From: Synechococcus sp. Cruz-7E5
GTDB lineage: Bacteria; Cyanobacteriota; Cyanobacteriia; PCC-6307; Cyanobiaceae
Length of the DNA: 64,000 bases
Direction: 5' to 3'
NCBI RefSeq assembly: GCF_024345995.1
Contig: NZ_JAGQCE010000002.1
Span: forward strand, 1 to 64,000
The position numbers were made by a program, and so were the translations under genes. The notes under the pieces are model-generated. The model searched no databases, had not been told where the DNA came from, and saw only the letters and a list, made by a program, of their open reading frames with translations. This document shows positions 56,473 through 63,520 of this stretch, in pieces. Each line of letters opens with the position of its first letter. Position 1 is the stretch's first letter.

Positions 56473-57903
56473 TCAGCCCACCGCAACGCCGGTGAGGGAG
56501 AAGGCGCGCACCTCCTGGATCCGCACGTTCACCAGATCCCCCGGCTGGATGGCGCCGCCCTGGGGTTCGCCGCAGTGGCTGGCGGGGGCATGGGCGGGGA
56601 AGAACGTCAGCCGATTGGTGCGCGTGCGACCCATCCACTGGCTGGGTTCACGGGGGTTGCTGCCTTCCACCAGCACCTGCTCGATCCGCCCCAGGTAACG
56701 CTCACTGCGCAGGCGGGCTGTGCGCTCCACCAGGGCGTTGATCTCCTGGAGCCGCTCCACCTTCACGGCCTCGCTCAGCTGATCGGGCCAGTCGGCGGCG
56801 GGGGTATGGGGCCTGGGCGAGTAGGCGGCGGTGTTCACCTGGTCGAAGCCGACCTCCTCGATCAACGCCAGGGTGCGCCGGTACTGGGCGTCGGTTTCGC
56901 CGGGGAAGCCCACGATCACATCGGCGCTGATCGCCGCATCGGGCATGCGACTGCGGATGCGCTCGAGGATGCGCCGGTAACGCTCCACCGTGTAGCCGCG
57001 CGCCATCGCCTTGAGCACGTCGTCATCACCGCTCTGGAAGGGGATGTGGAAGTGCTCGCACAGCTTGGGCAGCTCGGCGCAGGCCTCGATCAGGCGCTCG
57101 GTGAAGTAGCGGGGATGGCTGGTGGCGAAGCGGATCCGCTCGATTCCCTCCACGTCGTGGACGTGCTGAAGCAGGTCGGTGAGGGTGTGCTGACGGCGGC
57201 CCTCCGGGGTGATGCCGGGCAAGTCGCGGCCATAGGCATCGATGTTCTGGCCCAGCAGGGTGACCTCCTTGAATCCGCGCTCCGCCAGCCCCTCCATCTC
57301 CAGCCGGATCGCCTCGGGGCGACGGCTCTGTTCGGCGCCACGCACCGAGGGAACCACGCAATAGGTGCAGCGCTCGTTGCAGCCGTAGATCACGTTCACC
57401 CAGGCGCACACCTGGGAATCGCGGCGGGCGGTGGTGATGTCTTCGAGGATGTGGTGCTCACCGGTTGCCACCACCTGCTGACCGGTGGCCACCTGCTCCA
57501 GCAGGGTGCCCAGCCGGTTGGCGTGCTGGGGACCCATCACCAGGTCGAGCTCGGGCACCCGCCTCAGCAGCGACTCTCCCTCCTGCTGGGCCACGCAACC
57601 CGCCACCACCAGGGTGAGGTGGGGATTGGTCCGTTTGCGCTGGGCCTGACGACCCAGGTAGCTGTACACCTTCTGCTCAGCGTTGTCGCGAATCGTGCAG
57701 GTGTTGTAGAGCACCAGATCGGCGCTGTGCTCATCGCTTCCGGGCTGGTAGCCCATGCTCTCGAGGATTCCGGCCATGCGCTCGGAATCGGCTTTATTCA
57801 TCTGGCAGCCGAAGGTGGTGATCCAGTAGCTGCCGCGCCGCCCGGCCAGAACCGGGGCCGATGCCGATGCTGTGGCACTCGCCGTTGTGGTGGTCACGCT
57901 CAT
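56473..57903 (-). CDS. miaB: tRNA-2-methylthio-N6-dimethylallyladenosine synthase
   Basis: MiaB adds a methylthio group to i6A37 of tRNAs reading UNN codons. The 476-residue protein has the three UPF0004 cysteines in [20 protein letters not shown] and VVAGCVAQQ, the radical SAM motif [13 protein letters not shown], and a C-terminal TRAM domain ending [17 protein letters not shown]. The ATG at 57903 is chosen; ATGs at 57921 and 57939 are upstream but lie in or beyond the 28-bp palindrome. It is divergent from the dipeptide-epimerase-like gene across only about 35 bp. Confidence 0.96.
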
Positions 57904-57906
57904 CCC

Positions 57907-57934
57907 ACAAGTTTCGACCATGGCCGAAACTTGT
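57907..57934. promoter_or_regulatory. 28-bp near-perfect palindrome between miaB and the epimerase-like gene
   Basis: The 10-bp arms ACAAGTTTCG (57907-57916) and CGAAACTTGT (57925-57934) are exact reverse complements. The 8-bp centre ACCATGGC contains the palindromic CCATGG, so only its outer pair mismatches. It lies between the two divergent starts (57903 and 57938), where a repressor bound to it could block both. If the upstream ATGs inside it are used, it would be coding as well. Regulator unknown. Confidence 0.55.
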
Positions 57935-57937
57935 TGC

Positions 57938-59077
57938 ATGCAGGCACGCCTTCACTGGATCACGCTTACCAAAGCGGTGCCCCTGGCGATCAGCCGGGGC
58001 ACCACGGCATCGGTGCGGCGGCTGGTGGTCGAGCTGGAGCACGAGGGGCTGGTGGGGCGCGGCGAAACCGGTGGCTTCGAGACCGGCCACCGGGCCTACG
58101 CCATCGAGGCTGTCGCGGCTGAGCTGGAGGCACTGCTGCCGCGCTTCGCCTCAGCCGAGGGTCTGGCCCTCAGCGAGGACCTGCCGGCCTTTCAGGCCCT
58201 TGAGCCCTGGCTTGCCCCACTGTCGCCACCGGCCCGCTGCGCCATCGACCTGGCCCTGCACGACTGGTGGGGCCAGAAGCTGGGCCAGCCCCTCTGGCGC
58301 CTCTGGGGCCTGGATCGGGCCGCCTGCAGTCCCACCAGCGTCACCCTCGGCCTTGGCGAATTGGAGCGGGTGCTGGCCAGGTTGGATCTGTGGCAGGAGC
58401 GCCTGGGCTGCTGGCCCCGGCGGGTGAAACTCAAACTGGGCAGTCCTGATGGCCCAGACCACGACCGTGCCCTGGTGTCGGCGGTGGGGCGGCGGTTGCA
58501 GGAGCAGGCCGGCCGCGGGGAGGCCGCCGGCACGGTCAGTGAGCTGCAGGTGGATGCCAATGGCGGCTGGGACCTGGCCACAGCTCAGCAGTTGATCCCC
58601 TGGCTGGCGGAGCAGGGGGTGGTGCTGGTGGAGCAGCCGCTGCCCGCCCAGCTCGACCCCGACGCCGATGCAGCCAGCTTCGAGGCCCTTGATCTGAGCT
58701 GCCCGATTCCCCTGGTGGCCGATGAGAGCTGCTGGAACCTGGCCGACCTGCTGCGCCTTGCCCCCCACGTGGATGCGGTCAACATCAAGCTGCTCAAGAG
58801 CGGCGGCCTGACTGAGGCCCTGCTGATGGCCCAGACCGCCCGGAGCCTCGGTCTTGATCTGATGCTGGGCTGCTACTCCGACAGCGCCCTGCTCAATGGA
58901 GCTGCCTCCCAGCTGCTGCCGCTGGTGCGCTGGCCCGACCTCGACAGCCACCTGAACCTGGTCGACGACCCCTTCGAGGGCCCCGAACTCCAGGGCGACA
59001 GGCTGTTGCCTTCCGGCCGTCCCGGCCTGGGGGTGATCGAGCTGTCCGGCCCCGCTGCTGCGCCTGCCCCGTGCTGA
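57938..59077 (+). CDS. dipeptide-epimerase-like enolase-superfamily enzyme (DgcA-like)
   Basis: The 379-residue protein belongs to the muconate-cycloisomerase subgroup of the enolase superfamily. It begins [20 protein letters not shown], contains the catalytic KxK in RRVKLKLGS, the Mg ligands Asp in LQVDANGGW, Glu in VLVEQPLP and Asp in LVADESC, and the second base Lys in [11 protein letters not shown]. That set fits L-Ala-D/L-Glu epimerases and the related N-acetyl-D-glutamate racemase DgcA. The next gene overlaps by 7 bp and is a DUF1611 protein, the family of DgcN, so the DgcA reading is preferred. ATG 57938 is used; 57920 lies inside the palindrome. Confidence 0.82.
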
Positions 59078-60186
59078 GCGCCGATGCGCCAGTGGTGCTG
59101 CTGCTCCACGGCGGCCTCGACAACCTTTCAGGCAAGACGGGCCTGGCGATGTTGCGCTATCGGCACGGTCCTGTGGTGGCCGTGGTGGATCCGGCCCATG
59201 CAGGCGCCAAGCTGGAGGCCATCACCGGCATCCCCCGGTCGGTGCCCATCGTGGCCGACCTCAACGCCGCGCTGGCTTTCCGGCCGGAGGTGGCGGTGGT
59301 GGGGCTGGCCCCATCCGGCGGGCAGCTGCCACCGGAGCTGAAGGCTGATCTGGCGGCTGCCCTGCGGGCCGGGCTCCATCTGGCCAGCGGTCTGCACACC
59401 CCCCTGGCCTCCGATCCGGAGCTGGCTGCCCTGCGGGGGCCAGGGCAGTGGATCTGGGACCTGCGTCAGGAGCCCCCTGGCCTGCAGGTGGCCGCGGCCC
59501 GTGCGGCAGCGCTGCTCGGCGAGCGGCTGCTGGCGGTGGGCACCGACATGGCCGTGGGCAAGATGAGCGCTTGCCTTGAGCTCACCGCGGCCGCCCGCAG
59601 GGCCGGGCTGGATGGTCGGTTCGTCGGCACCGGCCAGGCCGGCATCCTGATCAGCGGCAGGGGTGTCCCCCTGGATGCGGTCCGGGTCGACTACGCCGCC
59701 GGTGCGGTGGAGCGGGCCCTGCTGGAGGCGGCCTCAGATCCAGCCTGCACCGAGGCGAGCATGCTGTTCGTGGAAGGTCAGGGCTCCCTCTGTCATCCCG
59801 GCTCAACCGCCACCCTCCCCCTGATCCGCGGCAGCCAGCCCACGGCACTGCTGCTGGTCCATCGGGCTGGCCAGTGCCATGTGAACAAGCATCCCCAGGT
59901 GGCGGTGCCGCCCCTGGCAGAGCTGGTCGGCGTTCTGGAAGGGTTGGCGGCCCTTGGCCGGCCGAAGGGCACTCCACCGCCCCGGGTAAGGGCCGTGGCC
60001 CTGAACACCGCTGGATTGGCGGAGGACAGCGCCGCCAGGGCCTGTGGAGAGATCAGCGACTCCCTGGGCCTCCCCTGCGCCGATCCGGTGAGAAATAAGC
60101 CAGCAGCCGATCGACTACTGGCTTCAATCAGGGCGAGCGAGGGGATTCGAACCCCCGGATGGCGGCACCACAAGCCGCTGCCTTAA
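59071..60186 (+). CDS. DUF1611-family protein (DgcN-like D-glutamate N-acetyltransferase)
   Basis: The 371-residue protein has the DUF1611 two-domain plan. The N-terminal Rossmann-like part ends IVADLNAALAFRPEVAVVGL, and the C-terminal part has the P-loop-like motif AVGTDMAVGKMSACLEL and the metal/phosphate region LFVEGQGSLCHPGSTATLPL. In a described D-glutamate pathway DgcN, a DUF1611 protein, acetylates D-glutamate and DgcA racemises the product. Adjacent genes with a 7-bp overlap suggest the same here, though no activity is proven. The start is GTG at 59071. The stop at 60186 lies inside tRNA-His on the opposite strand, so the last 18-19 codons are shared. Confidence 0.8.
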   Translation: MLSADAPVVLLLHGGLDNLSGKTGLAMLRYRHGPVVAVVDPAHAGAKLEAITGIPRSVPIVADLNAALAFRPEVAVVGLAPSGGQLPPELKADLAAALRAGLHLASGLHTPLASDPELAALRGPGQWIWDLRQEPPGLQVAAARAAALLGERLLAVGTDMAVGKMSACLELTAAARRAGLDGRFVGTGQAGILISGRGVPLDAVRVDYAAGAVERALLEAASDPACTEASMLFVEGQGSLCHPGSTATLPLIRGSQPTALLLVHRAGQCHVNKHPQVAVPPLAELVGVLEGLAALGRPKGTPPPRVRAVALNTAGLAEDSAARACGEISDSLGLPCADPVRNKPAADRLLASIRASEGIRTPGWRHHKPLP

Positions 60187-60205
60187 CCACTTGGCGACGC
60201 CCGCC
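60132..60205 (-). tRNA. tRNA-His(GTG)
   Basis: On the minus strand the acceptor stem GCGGGCG/CGCTCGC pairs with one G-T. There is an extra 5' G (position -1, plus-strand base 60205) opposite discriminator C, the identity mark of histidine tRNA. The anticodon arm is GCGGC-TTGTGGT-GCCGC with anticodon GTG. The T-loop TTCGAAT is standard. No encoded CCA. About 55 bp overlap the 3' end of the DUF1611 gene on the other strand. Confidence 0.97.
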
Positions 60206-60246: not shown

Positions 60247-60696
60247 TTGCGGCCCGCCTCCTCAGTTCGCCTTGCCCGCTGGTGCACCGCTCTGGCCGTG
60301 GCGGGAGGGGTCAGCGGGGTTGCCCTGGTCTTCACCAATCCCGGGCTGGATGAGTTCGAGAGCTTCGCGGGTGACCAGCTGGCTGAACTGGCGGTGGAGG
60401 AGGTCTGCGTCAATCGCCTGCCTATGCCCCTCAAACTGGCGATCCAGAACTGTCCTGAGTTGATTCGCAGTCAGCACAAGGTGCTTGGTGACCTGGCCCG
60501 GCGCAGCACCCGGCGGCAGAACTTCGGACTGTTCAGCCTCTACCGCACCCAGATCGGAGGCCCTTCGGTGTTGCCGTTTCTCGAGCTCCCTATCTATCGC
60601 GTGCTCACGCTGGCGGCCGCCGGGCGCTTCAAGATCCTGAGCACCTCCAGCGACAACGACCCTGAGAGCGCCCCATCTGATCGTGGGCCGTGGTGA
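60247..60696 (+). CDS. DUF4359-family protein
   Basis: The 149-residue protein has an N-terminal hydrophobic segment (about residues 12-30, ALAVAGGVSGVALVF) and then the pattern LDEFESFAGDQLAELAVEEV, with ARRSTRRQNFGLFSLYRTQI, which fits the cyanobacterial DUF4359 family. Two conserved cysteines are present in the soluble part. Function is unknown; location is probably periplasmic or lumenal. The only usable start is TTG at 60247. It overlaps the next gene by 4 bp. Confidence 0.75.
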   Translation: MRPASSVRLARWCTALAVAGGVSGVALVFTNPGLDEFESFAGDQLAELAVEEVCVNRLPMPLKLAIQNCPELIRSQHKVLGDLARRSTRRQNFGLFSLYRTQIGGPSVLPFLELPIYRVLTLAAAGRFKILSTSSDNDPESAPSDRGPW

Positions 60697-62021
60697 GCGC
60701 GGCCGAGTCGCTGCCGCCACTGCTGCTGCCGCGTGCCCTGATCGATCCCCAGCGGCTTGATCTGCCCCCGGCAGATGCGGGTGGTCTGGTGGCCGTGCGT
60801 CTGATCCACCAGCATGGGCGGATCACGGCGATCGAGACCCATCTACGCGCTGATGGGGAGCAGTTGCCGCTGGCACTGACCCCCCTGGTGGAGCCCCATG
60901 CCCACCTCGACAAGGCCTTCAGCTGGGAGCGGCATCCGAACCCGGCGGGCACGATGCAAGGGGCTCTGGCGGCCAACCTGGCCGAGCACCAGGAACGCAA
61001 CCTCAAGCAGGTCTTGGAGCGGGGTGAGCGAGCCCTGGAGCGGGCCTGGCGCTACGGCCTGAGAGCCGTGCGCAGCCACATCGACAGCCTCGGTCCCGGC
61101 GCCGAGCCGGGATGGGAGGGATTGCTGCAGCTGCAACGTCGCTGGGCGCCACGGCTGGCGCTGCAGCTGGTGGCTCTGGTGCCGGTGCGGCACTGGGGCA
61201 CGGCCGCGGGAGGCGCCCTGGCCCGCTGGCTCGTCAGCCGCGGTCCGCGGGGATCGGTGCTGCTGGGGGGTGTGCTGGGCGCCCCCCAGGCCCCCAGCAG
61301 TGCCGATGGGGAAGGGCTGCTGGCCCTGCTCCAGCTGGCGGACAGCCTGGGGGCTCCGGTGGATCTGCACGTCGATGAAAGCGGCGAGGGGGGCGGGGCG
61401 GGAGTGGCTCTGGTGGCCAGGCTGGTGCGGCGGCACCGCATCGGCGTGCCGGTCACCTGCAGTCACAGCTGCTCGATGTCGCAGTTGAGGGCTCCGCGCC
61501 TGCGCCGGCTCGCAGACGCCATGGCGGACGCGGGCCTTTCGGTGGTGGCCCTGCCCCCCACCAACCTCTGGCTGCTGGGGCATCACGCTGAAGACACCCC
61601 GGCCACCCGGCCCCTGGCCCCGATCCGCCAGCTGCAGCGCGCCGGCGTCACGGTGGCGGTGGGGGGCGACAACGTTCAGGACCCCTGGCATCCGGGCGGG
61701 GATTTCGACCCGCTGGAGCTGTTGCGCTTCTGCCTGCCGGCGGCCCATCTGGCCCCCTGGCAACGGCAGGGGCTGGCCCCGTTCACCACATCTGCCTCCC
61801 GATTGATGGGTCTGGAGTGGGACGGGGTGCTGCGCCCCGGGGCACCCGCTGATCTGGTGGTGATCGCCGCCGGCAGCTGGAGTGAGCTGCTGGCCCGTTC
61901 TCCCCAGCGGCGGGTGCTGCGCGCTGGCCAGTGGCTGCCAGCTCCGGCGCCGTCGGAGCTGGCAGCACAGCTGGAGATGATGGCTGGAGGCCATGGCCGT
62001 GGCTGTGCCCGGCGGGGCTGA
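60693..62021 (+). CDS. CodA-like metal-dependent amidohydrolase
   Basis: The 442-residue protein fits the cytosine-deaminase branch of the amidohydrolase superfamily. It has the metal motif LVEPHAHLDKAFSW (HxH), AVRSHIDSLGPGAEPGWEGL, the second histidine in PVDLHVDESGEGGG, VTCSHSCSMSQLR and the catalytic Asp in VAVGGDNVQDPW. Substrate cannot be inferred beyond cyclic amidines or amides. The GTG at 60693 overlaps the preceding stop (GTGA); GTG 60690 is an alternative. It is followed by a predicted FAD-linked oxidase on the same strand. Confidence 0.85.
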   Translation: MSAAESLPPLLLPRALIDPQRLDLPPADAGGLVAVRLIHQHGRITAIETHLRADGEQLPLALTPLVEPHAHLDKAFSWERHPNPAGTMQGALAANLAEHQERNLKQVLERGERALERAWRYGLRAVRSHIDSLGPGAEPGWEGLLQLQRRWAPRLALQLVALVPVRHWGTAAGGALARWLVSRGPRGSVLLGGVLGAPQAPSSADGEGLLALLQLADSLGAPVDLHVDESGEGGGAGVALVARLVRRHRIGVPVTCSHSCSMSQLRAPRLRRLADAMADAGLSVVALPPTNLWLLGHHAEDTPATRPLAPIRQLQRAGVTVAVGGDNVQDPWHPGGDFDPLELLRFCLPAAHLAPWQRQGLAPFTTSASRLMGLEWDGVLRPGAPADLVVIAAGSWSELLARSPQRRVLRAGQWLPAPAPSELAAQLEMMAGGHGRGCARRG

Positions 62022-62074
62022 GTAGACCGGATGGAGGTGAGGTCCCCTGCCTGCCGTTCGCCGCTTCGGTCGCT

Positions 62075-63520
62075 TTGCCCCTCGATCCAGTCACCAGGCA
62101 ACCTGCCCTGGCCATTGCCACCCAGCTGCCAGACGATCTCCCTGCGCCGCCCACGCAAGCCCAGCTCGAGGCTCTGGTGGCCGAGCTGAGTTCCGCGGCC
62201 GCCGCCTCTGCCACCTCTGCCGGGGAAGCCGGCAAGGGGCTGGTGCTGATTCGCTCCGGGTCTGAGCTGGAGCGGCTCTCCCGGGATTTTTTCAGCTACT
62301 CCCCGGTGCTGACGCCCCTGCTGCAGGACAGGCTGGCCCAACTGGTGGTCAAGGCCAGCAGCACCGAGCAGGTGCAACTGGTGGCAGGAGCCTGCGCCCG
62401 TCATCGTGTGCCGATCACGCTGCGGGGAAGCGGCACCGGCAACTACGGCCAGTGCGTCCCCCTGGCCGGGGGGGTGGTGCTCGACCTCAGCGGCCTCAAG
62501 CGGGTGCGGCAGCTGGATTCCCTCAGTGGGGTGCTGACCGCGGAGGCGGGCTGCCTGCTGGCCGACCTGGAGCAGCAGCTCGCCCCCCATGGGCGGGAGT
62601 TGCGCCTCACCCCCAGCACCCGCCGCAGCGCCAGCCTGGGAGGGTTCATCGCCGGAGGTTCAGGCGGCATCGGCTCGGTGCGCTGGGGTTTCCTGCGCGA
62701 CCCCGGCAATCTGCTGGGCCTGGAGGTGGTCACGGTGGAGCCGGAGCCCAGGTTGCTGCAGCTCGATGCCAGTGCCAGTGCCCCCCTCAACCATGCCTAC
62801 GGCAGCAACGGAATTCTCACGGCGGTGACCGTGGCCACGGCCCCGGCGGTGCCCTGGCAGCAGCTGGTGATCGACTTCAGCAGCTGGACGGCGGCGGTTG
62901 CGGCGATCCGCGCCCTGCCCGCCACGGCCCTGCTCCTGAACGGCCTCTGCCTGCTGGAAGCGGCGGTGGCGAGGAATCTGCCCTGCCCGGAGGGCCATGG
63001 CCATCGCCTGCTGCTGCTGGCTGCACCCGACGCCCTGCCGGCCCTGGAGCCCCTGCTTCGGGCGATGGGCGGGCGGCTGGTCTGGCAGGCGCCTGAGCGG
63101 GGATGCCGCGGAGTGCCCCTGCGGGAACTCTGCTGGAACCACACCACCCTGCACATGCGGGCCCATGACCCCGGCTGGACCTACCTGCAGATGCTCCTCC
63201 CCCAACCGGAGGCCCCGGCGCTCGAAGCCCTCAAGCAAAACTGGGGGGATGATCTGCTCTGGCATCTTGAAGCCGTCCGCCAGCAGGGCTGCCAGCGGCT
63301 TGCAGCCCTGCCTCTGGTGCGCTGGCGCGGCCCCGAGGCGCTGCTGGAGTTGATGGAGCAGGCGCGGCAGCTGGGGGCCTTGCTGTTCAACCCCCACGTG
63401 TTCACGGTGGAGGACGGGGGTCTGGGGGTGATCGACGCCGACCAGGTGGCGGCCAAGCACACCTATGACCCGGCGGGTCTGCTCAACCCCGGCAAGTTGC
63501 GGGGCTGGAGCGAACGCTGA
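62075..63520 (+). CDS. FAD-binding (PCMH-type) oxidoreductase, GlcD-like
   Basis: The roughly 480-residue flavoprotein has the PCMH FAD-binding domain (ITLRGSGTGNYGQCVPLAGG then VVLDLSGLKRVRQLD, and SLGGFIAGGSGGIGSVRWG). The C-terminal cap ends with the family closing block KHTYDPAGLLNPGKLRGW. This is the glycolate-oxidase GlcD/lactate dehydrogenase superfamily; the substrate is probably a hydroxy acid but is not proven. No ATG or GTG is available before the domain, so a TTG at 62075 is given with low certainty. It lies 54 bp after the amidohydrolase gene. Confidence 0.83.
   Translation: MPLDPVTRQPALAIATQLPDDLPAPPTQAQLEALVAELSSAAAASATSAGEAGKGLVLIRSGSELERLSRDFFSYSPVLTPLLQDRLAQLVVKASSTEQVQLVAGACARHRVPITLRGSGTGNYGQCVPLAGGVVLDLSGLKRVRQLDSLSGVLTAEAGCLLADLEQQLAPHGRELRLTPSTRRSASLGGFIAGGSGGIGSVRWGFLRDPGNLLGLEVVTVEPEPRLLQLDASASAPLNHAYGSNGILTAVTVATAPAVPWQQLVIDFSSWTAAVAAIRALPATALLLNGLCLLEAAVARNLPCPEGHGHRLLLLAAPDALPALEPLLRAMGGRLVWQAPERGCRGVPLRELCWNHTTLHMRAHDPGWTYLQMLLPQPEAPALEALKQNWGDDLLWHLEAVRQQGCQRLAALPLVRWRGPEALLELMEQARQLGALLFNPHVFTVEDGGLGVIDADQVAAKHTYDPAGLLNPGKLRGWSER

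Follow-up and report, generated by a model that had tools for sequence, protein, structure and literature searches.

What is the function of two overlapping genes, one for an enolase-superfamily epimerase and the other for a DUF1611 protein, that stand together in the picocyanobacterium Synechococcus sp. Cruz-7E5? The pair lies within the first 64,000 nucleotides of contig NZ_JAGQCE010000002.1 (the whole stretch that we analysed, hereafter ‘the window’) and had been picked out in an earlier note as a DgcA/DgcN-like system for D-glutamate; the placement given there for the two open reading frames (ORFs), including their 7-bp overlap, agrees with both the coordinates and the Pfam matches reported here (Table 1). 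The pair is a real, conserved cyanobacterial variant of DgcN/DgcA, its proteins not being members of the DgcN and DgcA equivalogs. It is likely to be a two-gene acyltransferase-racemase module, and we tentatively propose one of the DgcN/DgcA type, which would N-acylate an acidic D-amino acid—most likely D-glutamate—and then racemise the product; D-glutamate and acetyl-coenzyme A (acetyl-CoA) being our best single guess at substrate and acyl donor.

Distribution and coupling of the two genes

Across 292 genomes of the phylum, strong matches to DUF1611 and to the epimerase were each found in 83 genomes, and both in 82 (Fisher p 7e-71, n=292, uncorrected for relatedness); in other words, 82 of the 84 genomes that hold either gene strongly hold the two together. 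At this frequency the earlier suggestion that such a pair would be unusual in a phototroph does not hold. The counts exclude 13 epimerase rows with E >1e-30 and, for DUF1611, 10 rows that were weak or represented a second piece, all with E of at least 9e-15 and nine with E of at least 5e-5; at E 0.001 the tallies are 91 and 95 genomes for DUF1611 and the epimerase, respectively. Four control genomes, that of Synechococcus elongatus among them, also gave a DUF1611 match, three of the four above the cut-off. Just one genome has the epimerase without DUF1611 (G053, with a listed contamination of 9%) and one DUF1611 without the epimerase (G211, which has a DUF1611 gene paired with a pyridoxal phosphate (PLP) racemase gene; see below).

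The genes are same-strand neighbours within 4 kb in 76 of the 83 epimerase genomes (71 with the epimerase first, 5 with DUF1611 first) and lie apart in six, on different contigs in five of these. Taking the first possible start codons, we find that they overlap in 44 of the 55 distinct cyanobacterial loci in which both are readable, lie within 62 bp of each other in 5 and are more widely spaced in 6. Pairwise distances of the two proteins are also closely correlated (r 0.97 over 56 cyanobacterial pairs, with 0 of 2000 permutations as high), a value of which common ancestry explains part; the loci compared here, in the trees and in the analysis of neighbours below are those among the best 30 per search plus hand-picked labelled references, rather than a random sample.

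Presence of the pair is patchy in the family to which the window belongs: within g10 it is found in G205, G201 and G272, not in G227 or G257, and as a remnant in G266, where the usual place (G266:C1:700795-701334) holds a 304-aa open frame that fuses the start of the epimerase to the end of DUF1611 and which, from its sequence, appears to be loss in progress. In a further genome, G174, the DUF1611 gene is in two pieces with an internal stop; the 83 and 83 given above include both of these broken cases. Genus g2 (genomes of 1.6-1.7 Mb in the rows shown) contributes none of the matches from the 292. Such patchiness would fit a dispensable, niche-dependent function.

Families, folds and conserved residues

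The best NCBIfam match of the epimerase (Pfam MR_MLE_C, 90.5 bits; MR_MLE_N, 34.4 bits; scanned as the longest ORF, from 57872) is DgcA (NF042940), and the only NCBIfam match of the DUF1611 protein (Pfam DUF1611, 210.3 bits; DUF1611_N, 87.7 bits) is DgcN (NF041892). AlphaFold models of the two proteins have mean predicted local distance difference test (pLDDT) values of 87.8 and 87.1. Among solved structures, the DUF1611 sequence matches 2obn (an Anabaena DUF1611 protein; 334 bits), 7xrj (DgcN; 154 bits) and 2g0t; its model has the same fold (Z 45.4, 36.1 and 36.6, respectively), the superposition on 7xrj extending over 329 residues with a root-mean-square deviation (rmsd) of 2.6 and 35% identity.

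The first 132 residues of this model resemble succinyl-CoA synthetase alpha (2nu9_A; Z 11.8, 110 residues, rmsd 2.5) and ATP citrate lyase (6hxj_D; Z 11.6), and the rest of it various P-loop proteins, among them MinD, cobyrinic acid a,c-diamide synthase and dethiobiotin synthetase (Z about 12 to 13). The N-terminal domain is therefore predicted to have a fold like that of CoA enzymes, a common fold being no proof of CoA binding. Foldseek matches of the model to MurD (TM-score about 0.2) were judged to reflect a common arrangement and set aside.

At the level of individual residues, H109, D130, R132, G157, D159, G163-K164-M165, T187-G-Q, E235-G-Q-G-S, N312, D338 and R341 are invariant in the five DgcN and 59 cyanobacterial DUF1611 sequences aligned, most of them recurring in other DUF1611 types and thus not discriminating; the P-loop carries Met in place of the Ser/Thr after Lys, as in all five DgcN rows. 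In the epimerase, K164, K166, D206, E232, D262, K284, D334 and D336 are kept in all 56 cyanobacterial rows; the catalytic set (K166, D206, E232, D262, K284) and the I-S-R-G stretch are common to these and to all seven DgcA-labelled rows. We take the Arg of I-S-R-G to be the equivalent of Arg24 in B. subtilis YkfB, which binds the glutamate side chain.

The DgcN-DgcA pathway for D-glutamate, reportedly present in marine Proteobacteria and haloarchaea and said to have been described originally by Yu et al. in 2023, is thus matched in its two families, in their adjacency, in the 7xrj fold and in the catalytic residues of the DgcA-labelled enzymes. To this extent the earlier designation of the pair as DgcA/DgcN-like stands: the families, and the closest described system, are as proposed. 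DgcN is described as central to a recently recognised, irreversible route by which acidic D-amino acids are racemised (PMC12363236), and DgcN-DgcA as the likely main route for D-Glu in Shewanella psychrophila (PMC10845958).

A proposed pathway and its metabolic setting

In the scheme that we favour, the DUF1611 protein would bind an acyl-CoA, most likely acetyl-CoA, and transfer its acyl group to the alpha-amine of an acidic D-amino acid (D-glutamate being the most likely) supplied by peptidoglycan turnover or from outside. The epimerase, using Mg2+ and two opposed lysines (for the two-lysine mechanism, see PMC5808125), would then remove and return the alpha-proton, so converting an N-acyl-D- to an N-acyl-L-amino acid. 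N-acetyl-L-glutamate formed in this way might pass to arginine synthesis via ArgB or, alternatively, be turned into L-glutamate by ArgJ exchange or a deacetylase.

The genome encodes ArgJ (449.7 bits) and MurI (190.3 bits); no ArgA match exceeds the cut-off, the one match to the model (121.2 bits against 202.85, over model positions 2-285 of 429) being taken for ArgB. With ArgJ present and no ArgA over cut-off, N-acetyl-L-glutamate would serve here as a precursor of arginine, and no additional new enzyme would be required. There is also one M20 peptidase and one histone-deacetylase-family protein, either of which could take off an acetyl group. According to PMC7133116, Synechocystis has neither ArgA nor ArgE and relies on ArgJ, and MurI is the enzyme that makes D-glutamate.

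We thus base the module reading on the NCBIfam matches to both DgcN and DgcA, the fold match to 7xrj with its CoA-enzyme-like N-terminal domain, the co-occurrence and distance correlation of the two genes, the invariant catalytic residues and I-S-R-G, the presence of ArgJ and MurI alongside an ArgA match under cut-off, and genes for N-acyl chemistry near the pair elsewhere (a PF00850 deacetylase in Roseovarius and a D-aminoacylase in Haladaptatus; see below).

Departures from DgcN and DgcA

A number of points weigh against this assignment. Neither NCBIfam score reaches half of its equivalog cut-off (157.6 of 400 bits for DgcA, 208.5 of 480 bits for DgcN), and the DgcN model is unselective, giving 177.3 bits for the second DUF1611 protein of this genome, encoded beside a PLP racemase, and 306.9 bits for a phage DUF1611 protein beside an alanine-racemase-like gene; as it also matches DUF1611 proteins paired with PLP racemases, its score reveals neither partner nor substrate. 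In the trees, the 56 cyanobacterial epimerases and that of a Roseovarius metagenome-assembled genome (MAG) make one clade (100/99), outside a 10-row clade (100/100) composed of the seven DgcA-labelled enzymes, E. coli YcjG and two sphingomonad epimerases, with the Bacteroides and Deinococcus epimerases elsewhere; similarly, the 59 cyanobacterial DUF1611 proteins with that of the MAG (100/99) stand apart from the five DgcN and one sphingomonad protein (100/100). Both trees are midpoint-rooted, that of DUF1611 having no outgroup, and the deep branches of the epimerase tree are long and partly unresolved, with long-branch warnings at several joins including that of YcjG with Pantoea DgcA (these two are also strong matches in pairwise comparison, E. 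coli 1jpd, at 313 bits, being the best solved match of Pantoea DgcA). The nearest solved structure to the epimerase, and also its best structural match, is the Bacteroides L-Ala-D-Glu epimerase (3iji, 140.6 bits; 3ijq). MurI could itself interconvert D- and L-Glu; across cyanobacteria, where neighbours were annotated in part, no D-Glu-supplying gene was found beside the pair; and we found no measured activity for any cyanobacterial member.

To these points are added the pocket-side residues. The cyanobacterial epimerases read GCYS for GCMx and DLDSHxN for DLDGP, and the positions of Y313-S314 and D-x-D presumably line the substrate pocket, judging by the YkfB literature. Y313, S314, N320 and W152 are present in all 56 cyanobacterial rows and in none of 22 comparison rows, where the place of Y313 is taken by Met (21) or Leu (1) and that of S314 is never Ser. 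The S-H-x-N that follows D-x-D, also found in all 56, is elsewhere complete only in the Roseovarius MAG (L084): S337 and N340 occur outside the cyanobacteria in this MAG alone, H338 and R148 each in the MAG plus a single further row, and G209 in three other rows. Within the DUF1611 protein, R205, R253 and Q268 are matched in none of the five DgcN rows; the MAG has R205 and R253 as well, and two PLP-paired DUF1611 rows have R253. Together, the changes in the two proteins suggest another acyl group or amino acid. It is on account of scores, clades, pocket-side differences and the unselective DgcN model that we speak of a DgcN/DgcA-like pair rather than of DgcN and DgcA themselves.

Gene order differs too, the epimerase coming first in the window and dgcN in the five labelled loci with both genes (two further DgcA-labelled loci have no DUF1611 within the stretch shown, and an unlabelled Bradyrhizobium pair has the epimerase first), and the eight window ORFs scanned with Pfam include no regulator or transporter.

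Might the pair then carry out the same acyltransferase-racemase chemistry on another substrate, with a different acyl group or an amino acid such as D-Asp, the pocket changes marking a new specificity? We consider this possible, if unlikely. The residues private to the cyanobacterial epimerases, or nearly so, would be explained by it, as would the three DUF1611 differences, the position of both proteins outside the DgcA/DgcN clades and the failure of DgcN-model scores to follow the partner; the I-S-R-G stretch is nonetheless retained with its presumed glutamate-binding Arg, the changes may be drift in a deep clade, and R253, being present in two PLP-paired DUF1611 rows, is not tied to an epimerase partner. 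Within our preferred DgcN/DgcA-type reading, a cyanobacterial clade with pocket-side residues of its own leaves room for an acyl group or side chain other than the one handled by the proteobacterial system.

An alternative function for the epimerase is that of an L-Ala-D/L-Glu dipeptide epimerase of murein-peptide recycling, with the DUF1611 protein acting on the dipeptide or its product. Fold, the two catalytic lysines and D-x-D are all shared with YcjG, YkfB and the Bacteroides enzyme, which is its best solved relative; YcjG nests among the DgcA-labelled enzymes; and a Sphingobium plasmid cluster carries a serine hydrolase, a dipeptide epimerase, DUF1611 and a dipeptidase. Set against this are the presence of DUF1611 in 82 of 83 epimerase genomes, a separate clade and a DgcA score above those from the models for L-Ala-D/L-Glu epimerases, namely YcjG (NF011708; 110.8 bits, cut-off 343) and NF041118 (60.4 bits, cut-off 500). 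Each of the three AEE loci examined has a neighbour of the murein-peptidase, C40 or NlpC/P60 kind, and DUF1611 is absent from the stretch shown; AEE genes in cyanobacteria are mentioned in PMC3605383, from which the term DUF1611 is absent. The eight window ORFs scanned gave no peptidase match. D-x-D, tried as a test of DgcA versus dipeptide epimerase, was rejected since the motif is present in both, including six of the seven DgcA-labelled rows. The phylogeny, to which the earlier note had looked for a grouping with L-Ala-D/L-Glu epimerases, is equivocal: the window epimerase groups with neither set, and YcjG itself falls inside the DgcA clade, at a join with a long-branch warning. Overall, a dipeptide epimerase strikes us as distinctly improbable.

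DUF1611 proteins beside other racemases

Among the 292 genomes there are eight strong DUF1611 copies with no epimerase nearby, one of them on contig 23 of this genome. All eight are adjoined by an Orr-like PLP racemase gene, and these are the sole strong Orr matches in the set (288 to 404 bits, none over the 480-bit cut-off; the next scores 54.5). Every one of the 90 strong DUF1611 matches is therefore accompanied in its genome by a matching racemase, which in G266 is reduced to a remnant. Like the window pair, this second arrangement puts DUF1611 next to an amino-acid racemase; it differs in that the racemase is of unrelated fold, the DUF1611 protein of a separate clade, and the occurrence limited to 8 of 292 genomes. 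On contig 23 of Cruz-7E5, the second DUF1611 gene overlaps its Orr-like racemase gene by 4 bp (L001 1036-3302).

Beyond the cyanobacteria, where loci were hand-picked, some for their labels (the survey of racemases beside DUF1611 being systematic only in cyanobacteria), the DUF1611-PLP pair also occurs on plasmids of Vibrio, Phaeobacter and Ruegeria. A jumbo phage of Erwinia (L144 2797-4763) has DUF1611 in overlap with an alanine-racemase-like gene, after which comes an asparagine-synthase-like gene; matches to DUF1611 are found in 34 phage records. As for the epimerase type, the Roseovarius MAG has a PF00850 deacetylase-family gene, epimerase and DUF1611 in a row (L084 2942-6059), the deacetylase directly upstream of the pair, with an SBP_bac_5 ORF among the annotated neighbours; its pair lies within the cyanobacterial clades, and this could be a case of transfer or a misbinned contig. 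Two Haladaptatus plasmids (L067 1121-6075; L143 2193-7072) carry four consecutive genes, for a D-aminoacylase, an epimerase, DUF1611 and another epimerase.

The presence of an unrelated PLP racemase beside eight of eight copies suggests for DUF1611 a general role as partner to amino-acid racemases. A broader and quite doubtful extension would have it acylate amino acids in general from CoA donors, in partnership with racemases whose folds are unrelated (enolase superfamily, Orr-like PLP, and alanine-racemase-like in jumbo phages), the enolase-type pair of ArgA-less cyanobacteria making N-acetyl-L-glutamate from D-glutamate. On this view D-Glu derived from the cell wall would reach the arginine and nitrogen-storage branch without passing through L-glutamate, and ArgJ would be joined by a second source of N-acetylglutamate.

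A PLP racemase requires a free amine, and acylation therefore cannot precede racemisation in the Orr pair. This touches on whether the module might run in reverse, from the L form to an N-acyl-D-amino acid as a biosynthetic or signalling product—an idea that we regard as highly improbable. Racemases are reversible, and in the second DUF1611 type, with its PLP racemase, acylation after racemisation would be the easier order; yet no recurring biosynthetic gene set was found beside the pair, among neighbours annotated in part, and the described DgcN/DgcA pathway goes from D to L (PMC12363236 and PMC10845958).

The locus and its surroundings

Table 1. Features of the epimerase-DUF1611 locus (window coordinates)
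Feature	Position	Strand	Details and basis
MR_MLE (enolase-superfamily) epimerase/racemase	57938..59077	+	379 aa; ATG 57938, TGA 59077; Pfam, NCBIfam, structure, tree, residues
DUF1611 protein, DgcN-like, proposed acyltransferase	59071..60186	+	371 aa; GTG start 59071, TAA 60186; Pfam, NCBIfam, structure, tree, residues
7-bp overlap of the epimerase and DUF1611 reading frames	59071..59077	+	Equal length in the six closest Synechococcus (sister) loci, L074-L079
Epimerase L-A-I-S-R-G stretch, residues 16-21	57983..58000	+	Alignment; Arg presumed equivalent to Arg24 of B. subtilis YkfB
Epimerase K164-L165-K166, K-x-K motif with catalytic base	58427..58435	+	Alignment; two-lysine mechanism, PMC5808125
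Epimerase Y313-S314-D315, after G-C	58874..58882	+	Alignment
Epimerase D334-L-D336-S-H-L-N340, D-x-D then S-H-x-N	58937..58957	+	Alignment
DUF1611 N-terminal Rossmann domain, residues 1-132	59071..59466	+	Alignment of model structure
DUF1611 P-loop, G157-T-D-M-A-V-G-K-M165	59539..59565	+	Alignment
tRNA-His(gtg), antisense to 3' end of DUF1611 gene	60131..60204	-	56-base overlap: the 3'-terminal 56 bases of the DUF1611 gene fall within the tRNA gene

The DUF1611 protein has its nearest relatives in Synechococcus sp. J7-Johnson (96%), 1G10 (95%) and WH 5701 (91%). An equal overlap with tRNA-His is seen in the six sister loci; in 12 other picocyanobacterial loci (L034-L045) the tRNA starts no more than about 115 bases past the DUF1611 stop, and in L080, L081 and L083 it is >1 kb away. 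In our model, residues 358-371, at the C-terminal end of the protein, have pLDDT <50.

Upstream of the epimerase, and diverging from it, lies a gene with radical-SAM, UPF0004 and TRAM domains (Pfam; 56473-57939, - strand), which we read as miaB; a block read by eye as ftsZ-ftsQ-ddl-miaB stands beside the pair in picocyanobacteria and one other genome (G036). Downstream, at 60690-63520, are a cytosine-deaminase-like amidohydrolase and a FAD_binding_4 protein with weak GlcD-like scores, families found in 11 and 15, respectively, of the 51 loci whose neighbours were clustered. We considered the amidohydrolase (60690-62021) as the lacking deacetylase and rejected it as a required partner: its best NCBIfam match is to a cytosine deaminase model (254.9 bits against 403), and in G266 a member of its family is still in position beside what is left of the pair, the fused remnant.

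Thirteen neighbours from the clustered loci were annotated. In other cyanobacterial loci the commonest is a NUDIX-domain gene upstream of the epimerase (three loci, L107-L109), and in two loci (L110 and L131) DUF1611 is followed by a GNAT-family gene, annotated as such in L131; seven were uninformative (transposase, Uma2, RsgA, LpxA-like, VWA, DUF2927 and one without a Pfam match).

Implications

In literature searches that left most subscription papers uncovered, and which are thus weak evidence of absence, we found no paper joining DUF1611 with cyanobacteria; DUF1611 alone returned only work on Dickeya, by title, DgcN with cyanobacteria only unrelated titles, and Ava_3511, 2OBN and TM0796 unrelated titles except for a Dickeya paper. 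The Anabaena DUF1611 structure, 2obn, has been public under its DUF name since 2007.

If our proposal is correct, recycling of D-amino acids by N-acylation, as in marine heterotrophs, would also operate in a large share of the cyanobacteria and might feed directly into arginine synthesis; and the DUF1611 family would gain a testable rule: one acyltransferase, several kinds of racemase.

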